DNA of 22,151 nucleotides, from NCBI GenBank assembly GCA_016188575.1, contig JACPHN010000153.1, positions 1 to 22,151 on the forward strand, in the 5' to 3' direction. This DNA comes from Candidatus Schekmanbacteria bacterium. Its GTDB lineage: Bacteria; CSSED10-310; JACPHN01. Both the position numbers and the translations under genes were made by a program. Below the pieces are notes generated by a model, which was not told the origin of the DNA, did not search any database, and worked only from the letters and a program-made list of their open reading frames with translations. Each line of letters opens with the position of its first letter. The stretch's first letter is position 1. Below, piece after piece: positions 877 to 22,151 of the stretch.

Positions 877-3147
877 ATGACCCGCTGCTCGCCCATTCCT
901 CATCTGGCCACCATCGGCGCCGCCACTGTTCTGGCGCTGTTCAGCCTGGGGGATGGGAGCGCGGAGAGCCCTGAGGTCATGGCCGCAGCGGCACTGGATC
1001 GACAGGTCGCGTACGTCGGCCAACAAGTGACCTATCTGCTCACGTTTGATCGCCGGGTGCCGCTGGCCAAGCCACCGGCGTTCAAGGATCCGAGCTGGGC
1101 GGGCTTCCGCGTCTACGAGCTCCCGCCCCCCAGACATGAGCTGAATCGGGATGTGGACGGCATCGCGTACCGGTCGCAGACCGTTGGTACGGCCCTGTTC
1201 CCGACAACGCCGGGCATCGTGGAGATCGGTCCAACGACGGTCACCGTCTCGCCGGGCGCCACGACGCCAGACAGGGCCGCGAATGCTGTGCGCCTGGCGA
1301 CGGCTGCCGTGCATTTGCGGGTTTTGGCGCTGCCGGAGCGGGACAGACCACCCGGTTTTCAGGGGCTCGTGGGCGACTTCTCGATGAGGATGTCCGTGCA
1401 ACCGCGCGCCGTCGCTGCTGGCGAGCCGATCGCGGTGACGGTGACCATCGAGGGTACGGGGAATATCGCAGCGCTTCCGGAGCCAAAGCTGGGCGCTCTC
1501 GATGCCGCGCAAGTCGTGCTGATCGAGAACAAGCGGACCGTGCAAGTCGTCGGTACCAGCGTTGGCGGTTCGCTCACCGCGTCCTTTTCCGTGGTCCCCG
1601 AACGCGCGGGCACGCTATTCATCGAACCAGCACCGGTAGTCTGTTTCAACCCCGTGAGGGAACGCTATCAACGCCTGTCCGTTTCCCGTGAGGAGGTGGC
1701 CGTGCGCGCGACGGCTGCGGCCGCGCCGAACGGCGGACAGCCTCCCTCTGTGGAAGCCGGCTCAGGCAGCGCCACTCCTGAGCGGCCCCGCCCAGACGTC
1801 GGACCGGCCGAGCTCGCCGGCAGTGGTGCCGCCGGGCCAGCACCCGCATCGGCACGGCTGGAGCGTCAGGGGAGACGCCTGCACAGGACCGGCGAAGCGT
1901 TGATCACTGACGTTCGATACTGGCTCCTACACCTGATTCCCTGGCTCATCCTGGGAGCCCGAATCGCGTGGCGACGCCTCCTCCCCGAGCCGCACCGGCA
2001 AGCACAGCGGCGCACGCAGCGCACGGCGCACAAGCTGCTGCTGCGGGCAAAAGCGGCGACCGCACGTGACGACCTCGACAAAACCTACGAGGCGCTTGGA
2101 GCCGCACTGGCGGCGTTGTCGGCCACGGGCTCACTGGCGGAGGGAGCGGGCGTTTCACGTGCCGACCTCGATGGGCTGGCGCCGCTAGCCAGGCGCTGCG
2201 AGCTTGCGCGCTTTGGCGGCATGCTCCCGGCACGGCCAACAGTCGTGGACGATCTCGAGCTCGTGGAAGCCCTCCTGGCGCGGCTGCCGGCAGCGGCGTC
2301 GGCACGCTGGCAAGGAGCGCACAATCGCGGGCCGGGGCCGCTTGCTTCCACGTTGATCTTGCTCGCGGGGCTGGCGAGCGTTCACTGCGGAGCGGATCGC
2401 CCAGGGCCCGCGGAAATCGCGTTCGACCAGGCCGTCTCGGCGATCGATGCAGACGACTGTGACCTTGCGCTCGGCTACCTTTCCACAGTCATCGCCGCCG
2501 GGGTCAATGATGCCGCCGCTGAATTCAACACCGGGCTGTGCCTGGAAGCGCGCGGCCTGCGCAGCTCAGCCCTGCTCTCCTACCGCAGGGTGCTGCGTCT
2601 GAATCCCGCGGACAGAGCGGCACTCGCGCGCGCCCACCGGCTCGCCGCGGAGCTGGGCGTGCTGCCCCATCATGCGGTGCTGGCCGCGCCAACGCCGGGC
2701 CTCCTCAGAGCTGGCCGCGACGCGGCTGCGGCGCTCGTGCTGACAAATGGCCCGGCTTGCGCAGGGTCTCTCTGCTACGCCACGGCCATGCTGCTGCTAC
2801 TGCTGGGCAGCCCACGCGACCCGCGGCGTGGCCGCGCCAGCGCCGCCTTCCTCCTGGCGGTCGCGGCTGGGGCGTGGTCGGCGGGAGCACTGGCGCTGGC
2901 GGCTAGCCGGCGGCCCGAAGTCATCGTCACAAGCGGCGCAGCCTCTGCTCGCAGCGGTCCGGGCTTCTCCTTTGGAGTCGTGACAACTCTGCCGGAGGGC
3001 GCCGCCGCCAAGGTTCGCGCCATCCAGGGGCCATGGTTGCTTGTCGATCTGCCGGATGACGGCGGACTCGGCTGGTTAAGCGACGATGACGCAGCGATGA
3101 TTCACCGCAGCGGCGGGAGTCCCTCCAGTGCTGCACCAGGGCAATAG
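877..3147 (+). CDS. BatD-BatE fusion protein (aerotolerance / Bat operon family)
   Basis: The product is 756 residues. The start is the ATG at 877, with TAGGA at 864-868, because it gives a clean signal peptide (about residues 1-28, cleavage near GSA|ES); an upstream TTG at 823 would bury that signal. Residues about 29-270 form the BatD-type beta-sandwich region (VAYVGQQVTYLLTFDR; second domain around VQPRAVAAGEPIAVTVTIEG). A Gly/Ala/Pro linker, a membrane segment (348-366) and a helical cytoplasmic BatD tail (368-485) follow. The chain then continues without a stop into BatE: a hydrophobic segment (489-506), TPR repeats (about 511-605), two membrane helices (about 629-645 and 653-678) and an SH3-like domain (680-745, ending GLGWLSDDDAAMIH). 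Bat proteins are usually encoded with MoxR and vWA-domain genes and are linked to envelope or oxidative stress. No such partner is visible here. The last codon abuts the 3147-3310 palindrome. Confidence 0.82.
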   Translation: MTRCSPIPHLATIGAATVLALFSLGDGSAESPEVMAAAALDRQVAYVGQQVTYLLTFDRRVPLAKPPAFKDPSWAGFRVYELPPPRHELNRDVDGIAYRSQTVGTALFPTTPGIVEIGPTTVTVSPGATTPDRAANAVRLATAAVHLRVLALPERDRPPGFQGLVGDFSMRMSVQPRAVAAGEPIAVTVTIEGTGNIAALPEPKLGALDAAQVVLIENKRTVQVVGTSVGGSLTASFSVVPERAGTLFIEPAPVVCFNPVRERYQRLSVSREEVAVRATAAAAPNGGQPPSVEAGSGSATPERPRPDVGPAELAGSGAAGPAPASARLERQGRRLHRTGEALITDVRYWLLHLIPWLILGARIAWRRLLPEPHRQAQRRTQRTAHKLLLRAKAATARDDLDKTYEALGAALAALSATGSLAEGAGVSRADLDGLAPLARRCELARFGGMLPARPTVVDDLELVEALLARLPAAASARWQGAHNRGPGPLASTLILLAGLASVHCGADRPGPAEIAFDQAVSAIDADDCDLALGYLSTVIAAGVNDAAAEFNTGLCLEARGLRSSALLSYRRVLRLNPADRAALARAHRLAAELGVLPHHAVLAAPTPGLLRAGRDAAAALVLTNGPACAGSLCYATAMLLLLLGSPRDPRRGRASAAFLLAVAAGAWSAGALALAASRRPEVIVTSGAASARSGPGFSFGVVTTLPEGAAAKVRAIQGPWLLVDLPDDGGLGWLSDDDAAMIHRSGGSPSSAAPGQ

Positions 3148-3310
3148 GACCCGTACCGAAATAACTGTGTCAAGCACCGAGGCCGAGCGAGAAGGCCGCC
3201 GGCGAGGAACGACGACGAAGCGTATCAAGGGAGCGATACGGTGAGGAGGAGAGACGAAGCCGGCGGCCTTCGCAGCAGGCCGAATGCAACAGTTATTGCG
3301 TTACGGGTCC
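3147..3310. mobile_element. 164-bp palindromic miniature inverted-repeat element (MITE-like)
   Basis: The whole interval folds back on itself. The outer ends are GGACCCGTA (3147-3155) and TACGGGTCC (3302-3310). AATAACTGT (3160-3168) pairs with ACAGTTATT (3289-3297), GAAGGCCGCCGGC (3191-3203) with GCCGGCGGCCTTC (3259-3271), and CGTATC (3221-3226) with GATACG (3235-3240) around an 8-base loop. All the arms share nearly the same centre (about 3229-3231). It contains no coding capacity. It fills the gap between the 3' ends of two convergent genes, and its left end starts on the last base of the BatD-BatE stop codon. I see no clear target-site duplication. It may be a MITE mobilised by an IS transposase elsewhere, or a large REP-like bidirectional terminator. 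The structure is certain; the mobile nature is inferred. Confidence 0.7.
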
Positions 3311-3338: not shown

Positions 3339-5975
3339 CTATCTATCTTCGCCCAGGCAGAGCAACCTGCCGTCCTCCGTGCTCGCCACAAGCCGTCCAT
3401 CTGCTACCGCGATGGAAGCGCGGAGAGCCGCACCGAGCTCCTGCTTCCATTTGAGCTCCCCGCTTTCGATGCTGAAAGCGAGAAGATCCCCGGCTTCCGT
3501 TCCCGCGAACACGGTGTCGCGCGCGATGACTGGCGAAGAGTAAAACGGCGAGCCTCCCTCGAAGGTCCACACCAGCACCGGGTCGGGGCTGAGCGCGACG
3601 GCGTACAGGCGCCCTGCAGCCGTGGCGATGATGACCACACCGCGCGCCACGGCGGGCGTGGCATGAATGGGCCGCGGCGGCCGCGTGGCGAACTGCCATT
3701 TCTCCGTCCCGGTGCGCCCATCGAGGGCGATGACGAGGCCCGAAGTGCTCGCAACGATCACCATGTCACCCACGACCACCGGGCTCGGACGTGGGAGGTC
3801 AGCCTCGGGATCGGCCGTGGCCGGTTTCCCGGCCTCCTCTCCTTCCGGCACGGGGAGCTCATAGCTCCAGGCGAGGATGCCGTTGGCTCGGGCCAGTGCG
3901 ACAACGCGCTGCGCAGATTGCACGTATACGTGATCCGGGCCGATGGCCGGCATGTACGCCTTGTCGATCGGCAACGAGGCGACCCAGTCTCCGGAGATCC
4001 GGACACTCGTCGTGCCGGCTCGCGCCACGCTGTACGCGGCCATCTTGCTGCCCCCCGTGGCGACATAGACGCTCGCATCTACAGCCGCGAGCGACTCCAC
4101 AGCGGCGCCGGGAAGCTCGTACTTGGTCAGGACCTTGCCATCCAGCAAGTTGACAATCCGCAGCGCGCCTGCCGTATCCACCGTAACCACCAGCGGCGGC
4201 TCCCCAGCGAGCACGGTCACCTCGCGCTCTTGTGGAGCCGGCTCGGGAAGTACCCAGCGCTCAGCCCCGTCAGCCAAAGCGAGGGCCCGCACCTGGCTAC
4301 CACTCGTCACGACGCTGTCACCGTGGATCACCGGCGAGAGCTGCCGCTTCCCGGGCCCCTTCTGGTCCCATTTCCGCGACAGCGGCAGCAGCAGGGGGTT
4401 TGCAAGATAACCCGTGCGCAGCGCGTTGCCCCGAAACGTCGGCCATGCGCCCGTAATCACGGCGGGCGACGATCCCGTATACGGAGCCAGAGACACGTGC
4501 AGCTTGGAGTGGAACTGGTGCCTTTTCTGCACGACATCCAGTCTGGGAAGGTAACCTGGTTCCCAGACCACGAGCGGCAATACTTCCAGCCCCGGTTCGC
4601 CGAGATCAAGCTCAAGGGGCGTGGAGCCGCGATATTTCCCGGCAAGGAAAACCTCGGCGCGCGGCGGATCGGATACGATCTCCAACTTCGTCGCGTCCCC
4701 GCTGGAGGCACTGCCGGTGTTTCCGCCGTCAGGTTGCTCGGTCGCCTGCGGGGTGCGGTCATGGTTGCGGATGGAGCTTGTGGCACCATCGACATCGCCG
4801 GCTCTGCGCGCCAGCAACAAGCCAACGAGAACAACGGCAAACGCCGCTACGACAAAGACGGCCTTGCGGCCAGTGCGGGCGGGGGTTCCTTCCGAGGCGC
4901 CGTGCGACGCCAGTTCCTGATCGAGATGGGCCTCGGTCGAGGGAGAAAGTGAGAACTCGTCGGCGGTGAGGCCGGACGACTCTGGCGACTCGCCGGCCAG
5001 CATCAGCGCGATAGCAGCCGCATCCGTCGGTGCGTTCGCGGGTCGCGGGGCGGCACCGGGCGCCGCGGCGGCCTGGGCTTTGGCGACCAACAGCTCGTCG
5101 CGCTTGAACTTGTCCGTCTCCGCCAGGGCATCGGACGCGCTCTCCACGAACAGACCCGCCTCGGCGAGGTAGCCGAGAGCCGTTCGGAATTCGTCCGCGC
5201 TGCGGAATCGATCCGCCGGCTTGAAGGCGAGCGCCTTGTGGAGGAAGCCGTCCACGGCTCCTGAGAGTTTTGGATTGCGGCGCGATGGCCGCTCAGCTCC
5301 TTTGCGCAGAGCCTTGAGATACGAAGCCGAGTCCGCGCACGCCTCGTATGGCGGGCGTCCAGTCAGGATGAAATAGAGGACGGCGGCGAGAGTAAAGAGA
5401 TCTGAGGCCGGTGACAAGTCTTCGCCGGTGAGCAGCTCGGGCGCCACATAGGGCGCCGGAGCAAGAAGCTCTCTAAGTGCCTGCGACGCGGATAGAGAGA
5501 CGAAGTAGCTCGGATCGGTAATCACCAGCGCCTTGCCCGGGCACCAGATGAGGTTTTCCGGTTTGATGCGGAGGTGAAGCAGGTCCCGATCATGCAGGGT
5601 AGTGAGGCTGGCCGCGAGGCCTTTGAAGATTGTTACCACCTTCTGCCTCAGACCGGCCCGGTCTTCTTTCATGGCGTCGGCGATTGAACGACCTTCGACA
5701 AAGTCACGCACGACGTAGAACCGGTGGTTGGTGCGTCCCGCGCTATGCACCTGGGCAATGCCGTCGAGCTTCGCCAGCGCCCTGAGGGATCGGCAGCGCT
5801 CGAAGAACGCTTCTTTGAGCTTGATATCAGCGACCGGTTCGGCGCCGGGCGCGATATTTACGAGCTTCACCACATAGGCGCCGCTCGTCTCCAGGTGCGT
5901 GGCGCGGTACGTTTCGCCTATCGGACCCGATCCGATCAGACTATCGAGCTGGTACGGTCCAACGCGGTGGCTCAT
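3339..5975 (-). CDS. Transmembrane Ser/Thr kinase-like protein with PEGA and PQQ-type beta-propeller domains (likely pseudokinase)
   Basis: The product is 878 residues. The start is the ATG at 5975, whose MSHRVGPYQL opens the kinase fold. Residues 1-275 are an Hanks-type kinase domain with the Gly-rich loop IGSGPIGETY (14-23), Lys37 in AYVVK, the catalytic loop HLRIKPEN (134-141), D154 in DPS, and APE (178-180). The catalytic Asp of HRD is replaced by Arg and DFG reads DPS, so phosphotransfer is doubtful. An acidic, Ala-rich juxtamembrane region leads to one membrane helix (372-388), a PEGA domain (about 430-497, IVSDPPRAEVFLAGKYRG) and a PQQ/WD-like propeller (about 505-878) with repeats such as SGLVIALDGRTGTEKWQF. 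The layout implies a cytoplasmic kinase-like domain and an extracytoplasmic sensor. It starts 13 nt after the signal peptidase stop, so the two are probably co-transcribed. Its substrate and signal are unknown. Confidence 0.85.
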   Translation of the reverse strand: MSHRVGPYQLDSLIGSGPIGETYRATHLETSGAYVVKLVNIAPGAEPVADIKLKEAFFERCRSLRALAKLDGIAQVHSAGRTNHRFYVVRDFVEGRSIADAMKEDRAGLRQKVVTIFKGLAASLTTLHDRDLLHLRIKPENLIWCPGKALVITDPSYFVSLSASQALRELLAPAPYVAPELLTGEDLSPASDLFTLAAVLYFILTGRPPYEACADSASYLKALRKGAERPSRRNPKLSGAVDGFLHKALAFKPADRFRSADEFRTALGYLAEAGLFVESASDALAETDKFKRDELLVAKAQAAAAPGAAPRPANAPTDAAAIALMLAGESPESSGLTADEFSLSPSTEAHLDQELASHGASEGTPARTGRKAVFVVAAFAVVLVGLLLARRAGDVDGATSSIRNHDRTPQATEQPDGGNTGSASSGDATKLEIVSDPPRAEVFLAGKYRGSTPLELDLGEPGLEVLPLVVWEPGYLPRLDVVQKRHQFHSKLHVSLAPYTGSSPAVITGAWPTFRGNALRTGYLANPLLLPLSRKWDQKGPGKRQLSPVIHGDSVVTSGSQVRALALADGAERWVLPEPAPQEREVTVLAGEPPLVVTVDTAGALRIVNLLDGKVLTKYELPGAAVESLAAVDASVYVATGGSKMAAYSVARAGTTSVRISGDWVASLPIDKAYMPAIGPDHVYVQSAQRVVALARANGILAWSYELPVPEGEEAGKPATADPEADLPRPSPVVVGDMVIVASTSGLVIALDGRTGTEKWQFATRPPRPIHATPAVARGVVIIATAAGRLYAVALSPDPVLVWTFEGGSPFYSSPVIARDTVFAGTEAGDLLAFSIESGELKWKQELGAALRASIAVADGRLVASTEDGRLLCLGEDR

Positions 5976-5988
5976 GGTCGCGGTCCGC

Positions 5989-6681
5989 CTATCTAAGCAA
6001 GCGAAGCAGTCGCTCCGTCCGCACTCTCTTGCCGGTGGGGTCCCAGGACCAGTAGATGAGGAAGGCCTTGCCTTTGATGTAGTCGCGCGGCAGCAGGCCC
6101 CAGTACCGGCTGTCCTGGCTGTTGTCGCGGTTGTCTCCAAAGACGAGGTAATGCGCCGGGCTGACGTCGTAGGTCTCGCCGGAGCGCCTGAGCGCTACGG
6201 CGGAGCTGCGCTCGTAGTGAGCATAGGGTTCATCGACGGCGGATCCGTCGACAAAGAGCGTATGTCCTTCCAACCGAACGCTCTGGCTCGGCTGCCCCAC
6301 GATACGCTTGATGAAATCGCGATTCAAATCGTTTGGAAATTTGAACACGACAATATCCTCTCGCTGAGGCTCGTGCAGAGGCACAAGGCTGAAACCTAGA
6401 CAGGGGAGGGGACTGCTACTAGCGATCTTGTTGACCAATATTTGATCGCCGATCTGGAGCGTCGGCAACATCGATCCGGAGGGAATCTTGAACGCTTGAA
6501 ACAGGAAAGTGCGAATAAATAGCGCCAGGATAATCGCGATGATAAAGGCTTCGGAGTACTCGCGGAGCATCGTTCGCCCGCCGCCCACCTCGGTGCCAGT
6601 CCCATCGCTGTCGTCGTCCTTCTGGGGCTCCCGACTGTTGCGTTCCCAGGCGCCCTCCAACTGCCGATCCGGCTTCACCAC
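5989..6681 (-). CDS. lepB: Signal peptidase I
   Basis: The product is 230 residues. It removes signal peptides from exported proteins at the outer face of the inner membrane. A hydrophilic N-terminus of about 40 residues is followed by one membrane helix (about 42-62). The catalytic serine box is IPSGSMLPTL with Ser70; the general-base lysine is Lys125 in DFIKRIVG; the conserved box GDNRDNSQDSR spans 182-192. All key S26 family residues are present and the length is usual. The start is a GTG at 6681 with GAGGA just upstream on the minus strand. The downstream kinase-like gene begins 13 nt after its stop. The upstream ROK gene ends 148 nt before it, leaving room for the separate promoter proposed at 6750-6779. 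Confidence 0.93.
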   Translation of the reverse strand: MVKPDRQLEGAWERNSREPQKDDDSDGTGTEVGGGRTMLREYSEAFIIAIILALFIRTFLFQAFKIPSGSMLPTLQIGDQILVNKIASSSPLPCLGFSLVPLHEPQREDIVVFKFPNDLNRDFIKRIVGQPSQSVRLEGHTLFVDGSAVDEPYAHYERSSAVALRRSGETYDVSPAHYLVFGDNRDNSQDSRYWGLLPRDYIKGKAFLIYWSWDPTGKRVRTERLLRLLR

Positions 6682-15017: not shown

Positions 15018-18000
15018 ATGAGGATGCAACGACTTGTGCTGGTTTTGGCAGGCCTTTTCGGCATCGCCACCACCATGCCGGCCGAGGTCGCATGGGCGCA
15101 GGCAACCTACACCTGGGTGGGCGCCAGCGGCTCGTGGAGCACGCCGGGTAACTGGTCACCTTCAGGTCCCCCCACGAGCGGCGCGGACGTCATCATCGAC
15201 GCCGCTAGTTATCTCCGCAGCGTCGTGGTCACGCTGGACCAGGATGCGACCGTCGACAACCTCACATTGACCAGTGACGCGACCTATAGCGCCGAGCTGT
15301 CCTTGTCCGGTAGCAAGACGTTTACCGTAAACGGCGCCAGCACGGTCGACTCCTTCTCCACCTTGACGCTGCAGAATGGCGTCCTCGCCGGCATCGGTGG
15401 CCTCGTCATCGATGGCACCTTCAACTGGAGTGGTGGAACCATCGAAGGCACCGGCGCGCTGACGGTCAATAGCGGGGCCGTCGTTTCCGGTGGCAACTGG
15501 AAGACCCTGGACACCCGCGTGCTGACTACCGTCGGCGGGACTTGGAGCGGCACCGGCACACTCTGGTTCGAGAATGAGGCGCAGCTCGTCAACGAGCTGG
15601 GCGCTGCGTTCACAATCACCTCCGATGCCGCTGCGGACTATTCGACGGGAGGCACTATCGTCAATAACGGGACGATCACCAAGAGCGCCGGCTCGGGCGG
15701 TCAGACGACGATTGACGTGCCGTTCGAGAATAACGGCATCCTGAATGTCGCGGAAGGTATCGTCAGTCTGACCCGCGGCGGCACCGGCACGTCTTGCACG
15801 TATGCGGTTACCGCCGGGGCGGAGCTGCAGCTCGACGGCTATACCCAGGCCATGGACACCGCAAGCTTCGCAGGAGACGGCCGAGTCACGCTCATGAACG
15901 GAACGATGACCGTCGCCGGCACTGGGGCGTCCCAGACCGACGCGACGACGGAGCTGGCCATCGAGGCCGGGACCTTGAATGGCACGGCAGATTTCACGGC
16001 AAATGGACCATTTTTCTGGACGGGCGGCACGATCTCGGGAAGTGGAACGTTCGACGCCAACAGCACGGTGCTGATCGACCCGAGCTCCTGGGTGACGCTC
16101 GATAACCGCAACTTTACCGCATCCGGCGCCCTCCAGTGGTCCGCTGTAGGCAGTATCTACGTTTCGGGCGGCGCCACCTGGACGCATGAGGCGACGGCTA
16201 CGTTCGACATCCAGGGCGACGAGTGGTTTCAAAACACGTCCGGTGGTGGCACATTCGTGAACGCCGGCACGGTCACGAAATCCGCGGGACTGGGAACCGC
16301 CGGATTCGAGATCCCGGTTAACAACACGGGAACCATCCAGGTGGACGCCGGCACTCTCGCTTTTCTCGGTGGCGGGCAGACTGATGCCACGATGAATGCG
16401 GCGGTTGGCGCCGCGCTCCAGTTCGGCGGCGGAACGTTCAGTCTGGATGGCGCGTTCTTCGGCGGCGGCGGGACCGTCGACTTGTCGGCGGGGACTCTGG
16501 ACGATACGGGCCTTTCGGCCTCGACCTTCGACGCCGGCGTCACCCTCACACTCAGCGGCGGTACCCTGAGCGGCGATCAACCGACCACGGTCGCGGGGAC
16601 GGCGGAGTGGCGGCTTGGAACGATTTCCGGCGCCGCGACCAGCTCCGCCGCGCTGACCATCGAAGGCCTGCTCACCATCTCGACGGCGAGCTGGGTGTAC
16701 CTCGACACCAGAATGTTGAAGGCGATGACCGTCGCACACACGGGCTCCGGGGATCTCTACCTGAAAAACGACGCCGTCTTCGAGCTGCAGGTCGCCGGAA
16801 CCTACGACCTGCAAACCGACGCCGGCATCCTGTACGGTTCCCCGGGTGGTCGGTTTGCCAACTACGGCACGTTCACCAAGAGCGGCGGGAGCGTGTCCTC
16901 GCAGATCACGAACGCGTTTGACAATGACGGCACCGTCAACGCCGGTAGCGGCACCTTGTCGTTCGAATCCGGAGGTACGCACTCTGGTGTCTTCTCGACC
17001 GTGGCCTCCGCGGCGATCGAGCTCGCCGGCGGCGTGCACACCCTGAGCGCGGTGAGCTTCACCGGCGCAGGGTCGGTGCGGGTCAGCGCCGGCGAAGTCA
17101 CTGTGGGCGGAAGCAGCAAGACGACGGTTGCGAGCACGACCAGCTTTGAGGTCACGGGTGGCGGCACGCTCGGTGGTGCCCAGCAGATGGAGGTCAACGG
17201 GCCTTTTGGGTTCAGCTACGGCACTTTGAATGGTGCGGGCACGCTGACCCTGGCCGGGGCCTCGGCGTTCACGAGCGGAAACGCCAAGACTGTGGACGGC
17301 AAGCCGATTGTCAATAACAGCTTGCTCACGTGGTCGGGCACGGGCTGGCTCGTGCTCAAGAACGGCGCTTCGATCACGAATCTAACCTCCGGAGTGATCG
17401 ATATCCAGACCGACGAAACGATCGACGATAGCTTCCCGGGCGGCGGAACGATTGCCAACTACGGCTTGATCAGAAAGTCAGCCGGCCTCTCAGTGGCGTA
17501 TATCGAATCGCCGCTGGACAATGCGGGGACGATTGCTGCGGAATCGGGGGCCATCTGGCTCGGCGGGAATGGCACGCACACCGGCGAGTTCCAGGCGCTG
17601 CCTGCCGCAGAGGTGACCTTCGGCGCCGGGCAGCACCAGCTCACGGGCGCCTCCTTTACCATGGGCGGCACCGCGCGGCTCGCGAGCGGAGCTTTCACGA
17701 TAACGGGCGCTGACGCCACCTCGGTAGCAGCAGGGACCACTCTCGCCGTGGATGGCGGCACGCTCTCAGGAACGGGTCCGATGTCGGTGGCCGGAATGCT
17801 GATCTGGTCGGGAGGCACGCTTGGTGGCAGCGGCGCGTTCGACATCGGCGGCTCTCTTGTCGTCAGCGGCGGTGGCACCAAACGCCTGGACGGCAAGACG
17901 CTCACGCTAAGCGGCACGGGCTCGTGGACCGGGTCGGGTTGGTGGGAGCTCATCAACGCTGCCGTCGTGAACATCGCCAGCGGCGCTACATTCGACATTG

Positions 18001-21000
18001 CGACTGATTCTACACTCGATGCGCTCATCCCCGATGGCGGCACGTTGACCAATGCTGGGACGCTGACGAAATCGGCGGGCAGCGGCACGAGCGCCACGAC
18101 GCTTTTCGTAGGACTGGTCAACACCGGCGCCGTGAGCCTCGACGCCGGTGTGCTCGAGGTTTCGAGCTACGTGCAAACGGCCGGCCAGACCACCCTTGGG
18201 GGCGGCGCGCTGGTGACGACCGGGACAATCGATCTCCAGGGAGGCTTTCTGTACGGGTCAGGTACGATCACCGGAAATGTGTCCAACAGTGGCGCTGTCG
18301 TGGCCCCGGGGAACCCGACCGGCGCGCTCGCCATCGACGGAGACTTCACTCAGGCCGCGGCTGGCCAGATCATCGTCGACGTAGGCGGAACCACGGCGGG
18401 CACAACGTACGACCAGATCACCGTTACGGGGGCGGCCGCGCTTTCAGGTACGCTGCAGAGCTCGCTCATCAACGCGTTCGTCCCCACTCTTGGACAGACG
18501 TTTCGCGCCATGACGTTCGCCTCCGTAGCGGGGGAATTCACATCTTACGTCGGCGCCTCGGCTAGCGGCATCATGCTGACCCCGGTCTTGACCGCGACAG
18601 CTCTGGATCTGCAGGCCGAGCTGGACACCAGCAGCGCCTTCATGCCCGACGTCCGGCAGTTCGCGGCGACACCTCAGGACGGACAGGTTGTCCTCACCTG
18701 GGTCCCCGTTCCCGCCGTGGACGCGCCAAGCGGCACGCTGCCGACCGTGACCGTGGTCCGGAAGGAAGCGAGCTACCCAATCTCGTTGTCGGACGGTGTC
18801 ATCGTCGCCGCGGGTGCCAATCCGCCCCTCGTGGACGCCGGCGCGACCAATGGCACGACCTACTACTATGCGGCCTTCGTCGAGACCGCCAGCACTGTTG
18901 CCAGGGCCGCCGTGCTCGCCTCTCCCGGAGTGTTCTCGCGAGCGACACCGCTGGCTGGGCTGGTTGACCTTACACCGCCGGTCTTCGTCGATGGCGGACC
19001 CCTGGTAGTCGGCAAGGATGCAGATCTCTTGAGCGTCTCCTGGGCGGTCAATGAGCCTGCCGCGGTCGAAGTATTCGTCAATACGGGCGACGGCTATACG
19101 AGCGTAGCGGACACATACTACGCCGTCCAGAGGACCATCAGCTTGACGGGGCTGGGCGGCGCGGCAACGGGCGTGTTCCTGTGCGCCACGGATCTCGCCC
19201 AACTCGGCCCTGTCTGCACCAATGAGCTCCCGATCGGCCTTCCCGGGGCCGCGGACACGACGAACCCCGTACTGCTCCAGGCTCCTACGGTCCACGCGTA
19301 TGAGGATCGCGCCATCATCGAGGTGGTCACCGACGATCCCTCCGCCGTCACGATCGAGCTCGGCCTCACGACCTCCTACGGCCGACAAGTCATGGACACG
19401 GCGGTCCTGGCGCCGCAACATCGGGTGGAGATTGCGGGACTACAGGAGGGAACGGCATATCACTACCGCGTGCAAGCGCAAAATGCCTCGGCGCTCACAA
19501 CCACTTCCGCCGACTTCACATTTCACACCTGTGTCGGCTGCGGCCACCCGGAACCCGTCGTCACCTCCGCGAGTTGCGACACCGGCACGGCAGGTCTGTC
19601 CGAAGTGCTATTGACGGTCACGACGAATCTCCCCACGCAGCTCGAGCTATCCTGGGGCATCAGCGGTGGTGCCCAGTCGGAGAACATCGTGGGACTGGCA
19701 TTTGAGTACGTGCACAGCCTCATGATTCCCGGATTGACTGCAGGGCAGGCCATCGACTACACCGTGAGGGTATCGGATCGCTTCGCCAACAGCAGCGCTC
19801 TGATCACGGGGAGCTGCAGCACGGCCGCCGCGGCGCCGGCTGCGGAGTCGGCCCTGCGCATCACGAGCGGACCGCTGGCCGACGTCAGCCGCATCGGCAC
19901 GACATTTGGGACGATCGACTGGACGACGGACGTGATGGCGCGGTCACGCCTGGTTTCGGTGACGCCCGCGGCGCGCACCAAGGCGCTCGGGCTCGGAGAC
20001 GGGGCGCCGGCGTCAGCGCGAGCGGCCGCAGTTGCGGCGGACTGGTCCGCGTATCGCACGGAGCACGCCATCTCCGTGGCCAACCTCCTGCCGGCAACAA
20101 CCTACGACGTGGTCGTGGAGAGCGTGGACATCTTCGCCCGCGGGGTAACCGCGGAAACGCTCACCTTTACGACTCAGGACACGCAGGAAGACCTGCCGCC
20201 AACCTTCCAGGCTGCGCCCAGCGTCCCCTACGCCACCCAGAACACGGTGCTGTGCGACTGGACCGTTTCGGAGGCGACGCAGGCAATCGCGACTCTGGAG
20301 GGAACTCCCCTTGGCGGTCGCGCCCCGGTCTCGTTCTCCTGGTCATCGCCCGCGCCGGCCCAGGACCATCAAGCGGTGTTTGGAAACGTTCCCGCGGGTA
20401 CCTACACCTACCGGGTCAGTGCGGTGACCGCTTCCGGCCAGAGCCTCAGCTCGAGCACGGGCGACCTCGATTTCAGCGGCGGCGACTCGGCCGACAACAC
20501 GGCGCCGGGTATCAGCAGCGTCGCCGTGGCAGAAGTAACCGATTCGCTGGCGTTGCTTCGCTGGATCACGGATGAGCCGACGCGGAGTGCGGTTCGCTAC
20601 GGCACATCTCTGCCGCTCAAGGGACGCAAGGACGACAACGCGTACGTCACGGGCCACCTCGTCCAGCTTACCGGCCTCACGCCAGGTCAGAGAATTCTGT
20701 ATCAGATCGAGGCGTACGACGTAGCGGGAAACAAGGCCGAGCATGGACCGGAAAATATCCAGATGCAGGAGACAAAAGATACGACTGCACCGCTCATTGA
20801 TGGGGGCTCGCTAAGGCTCACGTGGTTGAGCAACAGCAGCGCGCTCATCGAATGGGACACCGACGAAGCGGCAGATTCGACTGTCGAGTTCGGAGGCAGC
20901 ACGGAGTACAGGTTGCTCGTGCAGAACCCCAAATTCGTGACCCAGCACGCCATCCTACTTGATGGACTTCTCGGTGGAAAGCGCTACTACGCTCGCGTCC

Positions 21001-21179
21001 GCTCTCTCGACATGGAGAGAAACAAGAGCGACTACGAGACTTTCGACGACCCCTTTGTCGCGCCGGTTCCGGTATCGGGTGCGCCCGCCCTGGCCGCGAT
21101 GGCGGCTCTGCTCGCGCCAGTCCTGGTGTTCCGCAGTACCGCGAAGAGAATGGCCCGGCCGCCGGTGCCGAAGCGCTGA
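15018..21179 (+). CDS. Giant exported repeat protein with Fn3-like domains and C-terminal membrane anchor
   Basis: The product is 2053 residues. The ATG at 15018 has AGGAG at 15006-15010. A signal peptide covers about 1-27 (cleavage near AWA|QA). Residues about 28-1100 form a Gly/Thr/Ser-rich region with WSGGTI and GTLTKSAG motifs in five repeats of about 199 residues, probably a beta-solenoid. A closing module (about 1097-1205, VAPGNPTGALAIDGDF onward) resembles the end of autotransporter-type passengers. Then come about eight Fn3-like domains starting near 1211, 1316, 1413, 1512, 1612, 1726, 1826 and 1921, several with DTTAP- or DNTAP-type openings and a HYRV or YYAR strand. The C-terminus is VPVSG (2017-2021), a hydrophobic helix (about 2022-2038) and a basic tail. 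It is probably displayed at the cell surface as an adhesin or matrix protein. No enzyme domain or beta-barrel translocator is visible. The exact family is not recognised. Confidence 0.8.
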   Translation: MRMQRLVLVLAGLFGIATTMPAEVAWAQATYTWVGASGSWSTPGNWSPSGPPTSGADVIIDAASYLRSVVVTLDQDATVDNLTLTSDATYSAELSLSGSKTFTVNGASTVDSFSTLTLQNGVLAGIGGLVIDGTFNWSGGTIEGTGALTVNSGAVVSGGNWKTLDTRVLTTVGGTWSGTGTLWFENEAQLVNELGAAFTITSDAAADYSTGGTIVNNGTITKSAGSGGQTTIDVPFENNGILNVAEGIVSLTRGGTGTSCTYAVTAGAELQLDGYTQAMDTASFAGDGRVTLMNGTMTVAGTGASQTDATTELAIEAGTLNGTADFTANGPFFWTGGTISGSGTFDANSTVLIDPSSWVTLDNRNFTASGALQWSAVGSIYVSGGATWTHEATATFDIQGDEWFQNTSGGGTFVNAGTVTKSAGLGTAGFEIPVNNTGTIQVDAGTLAFLGGGQTDATMNAAVGAALQFGGGTFSLDGAFFGGGGTVDLSAGTLDDTGLSASTFDAGVTLTLSGGTLSGDQPTTVAGTAEWRLGTISGAATSSAALTIEGLLTISTASWVYLDTRMLKAMTVAHTGSGDLYLKNDAVFELQVAGTYDLQTDAGILYGSPGGRFANYGTFTKSGGSVSSQITNAFDNDGTVNAGSGTLSFESGGTHSGVFSTVASAAIELAGGVHTLSAVSFTGAGSVRVSAGEVTVGGSSKTTVASTTSFEVTGGGTLGGAQQMEVNGPFGFSYGTLNGAGTLTLAGASAFTSGNAKTVDGKPIVNNSLLTWSGTGWLVLKNGASITNLTSGVIDIQTDETIDDSFPGGGTIANYGLIRKSAGLSVAYIESPLDNAGTIAAESGAIWLGGNGTHTGEFQALPAAEVTFGAGQHQLTGASFTMGGTARLASGAFTITGADATSVAAGTTLAVDGGTLSGTGPMSVAGMLIWSGGTLGGSGAFDIGGSLVVSGGGTKRLDGKTLTLSGTGSWTGSGWWELINAAVVNIASGATFDIATDSTLDALIPDGGTLTNAGTLTKSAGSGTSATTLFVGLVNTGAVSLDAGVLEVSSYVQTAGQTTLGGGALVTTGTIDLQGGFLYGSGTITGNVSNSGAVVAPGNPTGALAIDGDFTQAAAGQIIVDVGGTTAGTTYDQITVTGAAALSGTLQSSLINAFVPTLGQTFRAMTFASVAGEFTSYVGASASGIMLTPVLTATALDLQAELDTSSAFMPDVRQFAATPQDGQVVLTWVPVPAVDAPSGTLPTVTVVRKEASYPISLSDGVIVAAGANPPLVDAGATNGTTYYYAAFVETASTVARAAVLASPGVFSRATPLAGLVDLTPPVFVDGGPLVVGKDADLLSVSWAVNEPAAVEVFVNTGDGYTSVADTYYAVQRTISLTGLGGAATGVFLCATDLAQLGPVCTNELPIGLPGAADTTNPVLLQAPTVHAYEDRAIIEVVTDDPSAVTIELGLTTSYGRQVMDTAVLAPQHRVEIAGLQEGTAYHYRVQAQNASALTTTSADFTFHTCVGCGHPEPVVTSASCDTGTAGLSEVLLTVTTNLPTQLELSWGISGGAQSENIVGLAFEYVHSLMIPGLTAGQAIDYTVRVSDRFANSSALITGSCSTAAAAPAAESALRITSGPLADVSRIGTTFGTIDWTTDVMARSRLVSVTPAARTKALGLGDGAPASARAAAVAADWSAYRTEHAISVANLLPATTYDVVVESVDIFARGVTAETLTFTTQDTQEDLPPTFQAAPSVPYATQNTVLCDWTVSEATQAIATLEGTPLGGRAPVSFSWSSPAPAQDHQAVFGNVPAGTYTYRVSAVTASGQSLSSSTGDLDFSGGDSADNTAPGISSVAVAEVTDSLALLRWITDEPTRSAVRYGTSLPLKGRKDDNAYVTGHLVQLTGLTPGQRILYQIEAYDVAGNKAEHGPENIQMQETKDTTAPLIDGGSLRLTWLSNSSALIEWDTDEAADSTVEFGGSTEYRLLVQNPKFVTQHAILLDGLLGGKRYYARVRSLDMERNKSDYETFDDPFVAPVPVSGAPALAAMAALLAPVLVFRSTAKRMARPPVPKR
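15099..18302 (+). repeat. Five degenerate tandem repeats of about 600 bp within the giant gene
   Basis: Two independent landmarks give the same period. The Lys of the TxxKSAG-type motif is at residues 222, 421, 621, 820 and 1018 (steps 199, 200, 199, 198). The aromatic residue of the WSGGTI-type motif is at 137, 334, 531, 732 and 930 (steps 197, 197, 201, 198). Sequence within the units has diverged strongly while length is held, so they are old duplications under structural constraint. A partial sixth unit (GGFLYGSGTITG near residue 1078) closes the array. Confidence 0.8.
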
Positions 21180-21649
21180 GGTGACGGGGGGCGGCAACTG
21201 CGCGGCGGCGGCGGCGACGGGCTGAATCCACCGTCTGTTCGGCTGCGAGCTGTGCGGAAAGCGCATCACGAAGACTCCCTACCTCACTTCCCCGCGCTAG
21301 CGGGTGGAGGGGCGGAGGGGGCGCGTGGTGGCGCGCAGCAGACAACTGGCGAGCCGGCTCACGACCGCTCGCCCGTCCAACTGGCTCATCCGGGCCGGAT
21401 GCCGCGGGATCGCGGAGCTCGCGCCAAGCCAAGCCGTCATCAGGCAGCCTGCGGTCGCCCGTCGGGCCTTCTGAAGCGTTTCCCCTGGTCCTGGCCGCTT
21501 GGGCCGTGCCAAGGTCATGAGCTTCGGTGGAGGCTGTTGGCGGACGCGCAAGCGGCAACCCTATCGCGCATTCCCGTCTTCTGGTTCGGCGACGTCCACC
21601 GCGCCGCCGCGCCGCCGCAGCCCCAGACAGAAAGGAAGCCCTACCCCCC
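21180..21649. other. Intergenic region (470 bp) between the giant gene and pglX
   Basis: No convincing gene, tRNA, terminator hairpin or promoter was recognised. Purine-rich G-runs occur at about 21300-21330. A 49-codon frame (21325-21474, GTG start) exists but lacks a ribosome site. AAGGA at 21632-21636 may serve pglX, though 13 bases from its ATG is long. The region marks the step from housekeeping and surface genes to a defence gene. Confidence 0.4.
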
Positions 21650-22151
21650 ATGCTCGACCGCGCCGCCCTGCTCGCCGATCTCGGGAAGCTCGTGAGCACC
21701 CTCGAAGACGACGTGCGCGAGCGCGGTCGGGAGCTGCCCGAGGCCGATCGCCCGCTGCAGATCGAATACGCCGAGGCAAGACACGCAGGCCGCACCGCAT
21801 CGGCCTACGAGGGCTGGCGCGACGAGCGTCTGGCCCAAGTCGCGGTGGCCTGGGTCCTGGGCGCGGTGTTCGTGCGCTTCATCGAAGACAACGAGCTCAT
21901 CGAGCGGCCGTACTTGTCGGGCCCCGGCGACCGCCGAGACCTCGCCCACGATCAGTATGCGCGCTATTTCGAGAAAAGCCCGAGCGACACCGACCGCGAG
22001 TTTTTGCGACACGTGTTTCGCGAAGTGGGAGCGCTCCCGGCCGCGGCCGGTCTTTTTGCCGAAACCAACCCGCTGTGGCAGGTAGGGCTGAGCGGCGACG
22101 GAGCCATGGTGTTGCGAAAGTTTTGGCAGACCATCGATCCCGCGACCGGGG
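21650..22151 (+). CDS. pglX: BREX type 2 adenine-specific DNA methyltransferase PglX, N-terminal part (runs off right edge)
   Basis: The first 167 codons are visible, from the ATG at 21650, with no stop before the edge. The sequence has the hallmarks of the N-terminus of type 2 BREX PglX: MLDRAALLADLGKLVSTLED, then EARHAGRTASAYEGWRDER, then QVAVAWVLGAVFVRFIEDN with LIERPYLSGPGDR, and later NPLWQVGLSGDGAMVLRKFW. In the full family, of roughly 1200 residues, the methyltransferase motifs follow further in, so none is expected here. PglX marks host DNA at a non-palindromic site as part of the phage-exclusion system with PglW, PglY, PglZ, BrxD and BrxHI. None of those is seen in this window, and they would have to lie to the right. 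Assignment is by recognised similarity, not by a search. Confidence 0.85.
   Translation, partial: MLDRAALLADLGKLVSTLEDDVRERGRELPEADRPLQIEYAEARHAGRTASAYEGWRDERLAQVAVAWVLGAVFVRFIEDNELIERPYLSGPGDRRDLAHDQYARYFEKSPSDTDREFLRHVFREVGALPAAAGLFAETNPLWQVGLSGDGAMVLRKFWQTIDPATG

Follow-up and report, generated by a model that had tools for sequence, protein, structure and literature searches.

The window, by which we mean the whole stretch of 22,151 nucleotides that was analysed, is an entire contig (C266) of a Candidatus Schekmanbacteria draft genome of 9.2 Mb (275 contigs, 93.8% complete, 3.68% contamination), and its right edge is therefore the end of a contig. The beginning of a BREX type 2 pglX gene lies at this edge, with the following features.

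15018 to 21179, plus strand: surface-protein-like open reading frame of 2053 codons with Fn3 and purple-acid-phosphatase-N domains, the non-BREX left neighbour of pglX.
21180 to 21426, no strand: remainder of the intergenic gap, not common to the other pglX copies, with dispersed-repeat sequence at about 21200-21324.
21427 to 21649, plus strand: upstream region common to the pglX remnants (C86 is 89% identical over 21427-21935 and C159 87% over 21427-21677).
21630 to 21638, plus strand: ribosome-binding-like motif GAAAGGAAG, 11 bases before the ATG at 21650.
21650 to 22151, plus strand: 5' part of a BREX type 2 pglX gene (NCBIfam, PADLOC), 167 codons, open to the contig end.

The gap between the end of the giant surface-protein gene at 21179 and the ATG at 21650 is free of genes and measures exactly 470 bp, in agreement with a preliminary description of this DNA. 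The giant gene product has a hydrophobic C-terminal segment followed by basic residues (VPVSGAPALAAMAALLAPVLVFRSTAKR), which resembles a cell-surface sorting signal. The other content of C266 is ordinary, namely a SUF iron-sulphur operon with an Rrf2-type regulator, signal peptidase I, a ROK kinase and a Ser/Thr kinase; neither Rfam families nor tRNA were found in the window. A repeat of about 97 bp at 3146-3242 is scattered through the genome in more than 20 copies of 85-96% identity. Judging by its copies on other contigs, the segment 21427-21649 is part of a duplicated BREX segment. A promoter scan of 21100-21700 revealed no sigma-70-like site, and the terminator-like sites in the same interval were on the minus strand only. 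An invertible or phase-variable arrangement near the start of pglX was rejected, as no inverted repeats were found in 21150-21660 and the neighbourhoods of the copies are unrelated.

PglX is the adenine-specific DNA methyltransferase of BREX type 2, which marks host DNA and which, with PglY, PglZ, BrxD, BrxHI and PglW, excludes phage DNA lacking the mark. The right edge indeed opens such a gene, as had been proposed. The 167 residues encoded up to the contig end matched the NCBIfam model NF033451 (BREX_2_MTaseX) with an E-value of 9e-51, residues 7-165 aligning with model positions 2-162 of 1185, at 172.7 bits, the curated cut-off of 400 bits being out of reach for a fragment; the PADLOC PglX model matched the same frame with an E-value of 6.5e-49. 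These scores are far beyond chance: by sequence, the frame is the N-terminus of a BREX type 2 PglX, which the curated family model places in a known family, not a new one. A Pfam search of the 167 residues gave no match, because the Pfam models concerned (Eco57I and DUF7008) sit further downstream in PglX. Likewise, the DPACGSG and NPPY motifs of the Eco57I/N6-Mtase region lie at about residues 220-430 of the intact PglX encoded on contig C47, and the corresponding stretch falls past the end of C266.

Compared with this intact C47 protein, the N-terminus in the window shows 61-64% amino acid identity. Differences between the two genes at the three codon positions number 37, 46 and 78, as expected of a real gene, and dN/dS is about 0.25; on account of both values, the window lineage was long under selection. 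The motif GAAAGGAAG recurs in the C86 copy; the C159 copy has it with a single change. The window and the C86 remnant differ equally at the three codon positions (7/7/7); once polarised with C47, the changes are distributed 2/1/7 along the branch of the window and 4/4/0 along that of C86. Small as these numbers are, they hint that selection maintained the copy in the window for longer than the C86 remnant, and it may have worked until recently, or may even work still.

No pglW was found in the window, where pglX is the first BREX gene, as the preliminary description had it. The kinase gene at 3339-6140 was considered as a candidate pglW and rejected, being PknB/BamB-like with a weak PglW match (E 6e-11, far below the cut-off). 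Known type 2 loci differ from the window in this respect: pglW lies upstream of pglX in the four related chromosomal loci that show both genes, all with the canonical pglW-first order (Aquariibacter L025, a proteobacterial MAG L027, Microvirga L028, Azospirillum L029), and in three plasmid loci, in which accessory genes stand between pglW and pglX. The type 2 systems of Azospirillum cavernae (L029), Microvirga pakistanensis (L028) and the Polaromonas plasmid pPNAP01 hold a pglX of the same family as that of the window. On a plasmid of Candidatus Thiodictyon syntrophicum (L077, 8196-13157), a BREX type 2 locus has a pglX annotated as two genes, another damaged pglX, which a MazF/CopG toxin-antitoxin pair separates from pglW. 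In a survey of type 2 BREX, PglW was present in 1035 of 1309 taxa, about 80% (PMC12839542), so that a missing pglW alone is unremarkable. The window shares this absence with the type 2 loci of that survey that are without PglW; here, however, further genes of the set are broken, and for this reason decay is the better reading of the absence. The pglX-first order is best read in the same way and not as a new architecture. The comparison with BREX type 2 loci of related genomes that had been suggested yielded no orthologous locus, since no pglX above the cut-off was found in seven genomes of the same phylum.

The genome holds two BREX type 2 lineages, one on C47 and C147, the other on C266 and C230. 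C47, the only contig of the assembly with a full-length pglW, carries this gene intact, then a gene for a 263-aa HTH-like protein, then an intact pglX (1201 aa). The 263-aa protein (3984-4775, minus strand) has a C-terminal HTH, with weak matches only and none in NCBIfam. Downstream of this pglX, an unclassified gene begins and is cut by the contig end, and C147 opens within the end of an unclassified gene just before pglY (1267 aa), pglZ, brxD and brxHI, all open. Family models matched neither of these two gene ends; by eye, a single coiled-coil plus nuclease-like gene seems to be split between them, so that C47 and C147 may be adjacent. They would then together form one canonical pglW-pglX-pglY-pglZ-brxD-brxHI locus, likely the working BREX type 2 system of this genome.

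C230, by contrast with known type 2 systems, has a broken pglX and a broken pglY. From its start, it carries the end of an ISKra4-type insertion sequence, the tail of a pglX and a pglY with a frameshift, after which pglZ, brxD and brxHI are all open; no pglW was found on it. C147 and C230 match known systems in the pglX-pglY-pglZ-brxD-brxHI set and order, and are the only two loci of the assembly with PglY and likewise the only two with PglZ. The transposase end joins pglX at base 587 of C230, at codon about 672, and the copy of this insertion sequence on C105 (NF033572, E 1.6e-26) diverges from C230 at the same joint. About 195 codons are missing within the C230 pglX, the match jumping from model position 900 to 1081; pglY is frameshifted and short of about 110 codons. 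C230 does not hold the intact core frames of a functional type 2 locus, which bears on the window only if C266 and C230 form one locus. Amino acid identity with the C47/C147 proteins is 63% for the PglX C-terminus, 65% for PglY, 51% for PglZ, 78% for BrxD and 73% for BrxHI. The PglX segment adjoining the insertion sequence is much closer to C47 than the rest (86% DNA identity, versus 72-75% elsewhere), and therefore the C230 pglX is either a mosaic or a gene of different history.

Two further contigs carry remnants with window-type upstream DNA. In C86, the start of pglX is frameshifted and broken off at codon 95. In C159, the first 28 nt of pglX are followed by a jump to codon about 957, the remaining 3' end being 96% identical to C230 and the next 76 bp, which belong to pglY, 95% identical. 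As C159 combines a window-like 5' end with a C230-like 3' end, the two come from a single type of locus, in which pglY follows pglX directly. Among the remnants on C86, C159 and C230 we found deletions, stops, frameshifts and an insertion sequence; the deletion joints show just a few bases of common sequence, as in ordinary illegitimate deletions. A repeat of about 72 bp (C86, about 18520-18592) has more than 15 dispersed genome copies; C159 lacks it at the corresponding position, and it was thus apparently inserted in C86.

A third pglX lineage occurs on C57 and C59, where a PglW/MAD6-like kinase gene precedes pglX. The pglX of C57 is frameshifted and followed by a HEC-01A-like ATPase; that of C59 is cut at codon 377 by the last 135 bases of the contig, and an NsnA-NsnB defence pair is inserted between the kinase gene and pglX. 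The kinase-gene copies (C57 2-7835, C59 2-7667) are 94% identical, and both contigs start at the same base. Their tetranucleotide profiles are the least like that of the window, and these contigs may be an island or foreign.

Taken together, these data most likely make the pglX of the window the 5' end of a second, decaying BREX type 2 set of the C230 type, devoid of pglW, whose function has probably been lost. C266 is the sole contig that ends in the front part of a pglX of this kind and C230 the sole one that starts in its rear part; joining them is the simplest reading. The pglX tail of C230 stands before pglY-pglZ-brxD-brxHI, and C159 suggests its tie to the window; BrxD and BrxHI, open on C230, are absent from the window. 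Codons 168-671 of the window-lineage pglX are on no contig of the assembly, and none of the other contigs overlaps the final 100 bases of C266, so that the link between C266 and C230 is not seen directly. The closeness to C47 of the C230 pglX segment beside the insertion sequence, and the open frame and mostly third-position changes of the window copy, also count against this reading. As a test of whether C266 and C230 are neighbours, the SUF operon and mutS2 were compared in genomes of the same phylum; just one relative had both, on separate contigs. The decaying set would begin with pglX beside the giant surface-protein gene and, after an unassembled stretch and the ISKra4-type insertion inside pglX, would continue on C230 with the pglX tail, the frameshifted pglY and the open pglZ, brxD and brxHI. 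The missing piece (codons 168-671 and most of the insertion sequence) would be a short repeat-flanked contig, easily lost from a draft. If so joined, the pglX of the window is now interrupted. The BREX genes that had been expected near the window do occur in the genome (PglW on C47; PglY, PglZ, BrxD and BrxHI on C147 and C230); those on C230 would be its neighbours if the two contigs are joined. The idea of unknown defence systems just beyond the edge fared less well, since none was found beside the C230 set, where brxHI is followed by a short unclassified open reading frame and by mutS2 on the opposite strand; the defence genes that accompany the third pglX lineage are on C57 and C59, contigs that may lie away from the window.

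From a functional point of view, a set with a broken pglX, a broken pglY and no pglW, the PglW kinase that marks type 2 loci being found neither in the window nor on C230, is expected to provide neither methylation nor exclusion, so that phage defence and self-methylation by it would probably be lost. In Streptomyces coelicolor, resistance requires the PglW kinase and the PglY ATPase, and PglX is toxic without PglZ (PMC4365076). Loss of pglX before pglZ would fit this toxicity.

A possible, though clearly less probable, reading is that the window holds a complete pglX, either solitary or heading an unassembled third BREX type 2 core, which remains functional, perhaps by using PglW and the other proteins made from C47/C147. 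The frame that remains open to the contig end behind a conserved ribosome-binding-like motif, the low dN/dS relative to C47 and the preference of the window branch for third-position changes are in line with it. At a completeness of 93.8%, however, the genome yielded no third pglY or pglZ, every one of the related copies (C86, C159, C230) is broken, and the toxicity reported in Streptomyces argues against an unpaired PglX, though PglZ is present here. It is unlikely that the pglX copies come from different strains or species binned in one draft, instead of being paralogues of one cell: the fragmentation and 3.68% contamination of the draft, and the close likeness, common starting base and deviant tetranucleotide profile of C57 and C59, speak for such a mixture, but C266, C86, C159 and C230 differ in their chromosomal surroundings and have similar tetranucleotide profiles (r 0.93-0.95), and hence are not one locus from several strains. 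We consider it somewhat less likely still that the window holds a short stub like the 95-codon C86 remnant, ending soon past the contig edge and belonging to no locus; two of the three loci with the window-type upstream segment (C86 and C159) are such remnants in unrelated surroundings, yet the window frame reaches codon 167 without stop or frameshift, beyond the C86 breakpoint, and C230 needs a 5' partner that no other contig supplies. Finally, it is very improbable that the scattered partial genes form a reservoir from which recombination with the C47 pglX reshuffles the methyltransferase and hence its target site, a reading under which the mosaic C230 segment would be a trace of gene conversion.

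The decaying second set thus remains the preferred reading. The remnants on C86, C159 and C230 point to it, and an ordinary type 2 locus whose gene order would be notable, as had been thought, is not supported. A BREX type 2 locus that begins with pglX at a contig edge gives the impression of a new gene order; in the context of its genome, the simplest view is that a decaying second copy ends here. The pglX of the window is most likely ordinary biology, of some interest as a record of locus decay. As pglX is intact in one place and lost to different degrees elsewhere, in four stages or more, this genome offers a usable example of the loss of BREX methyltransferase genes.
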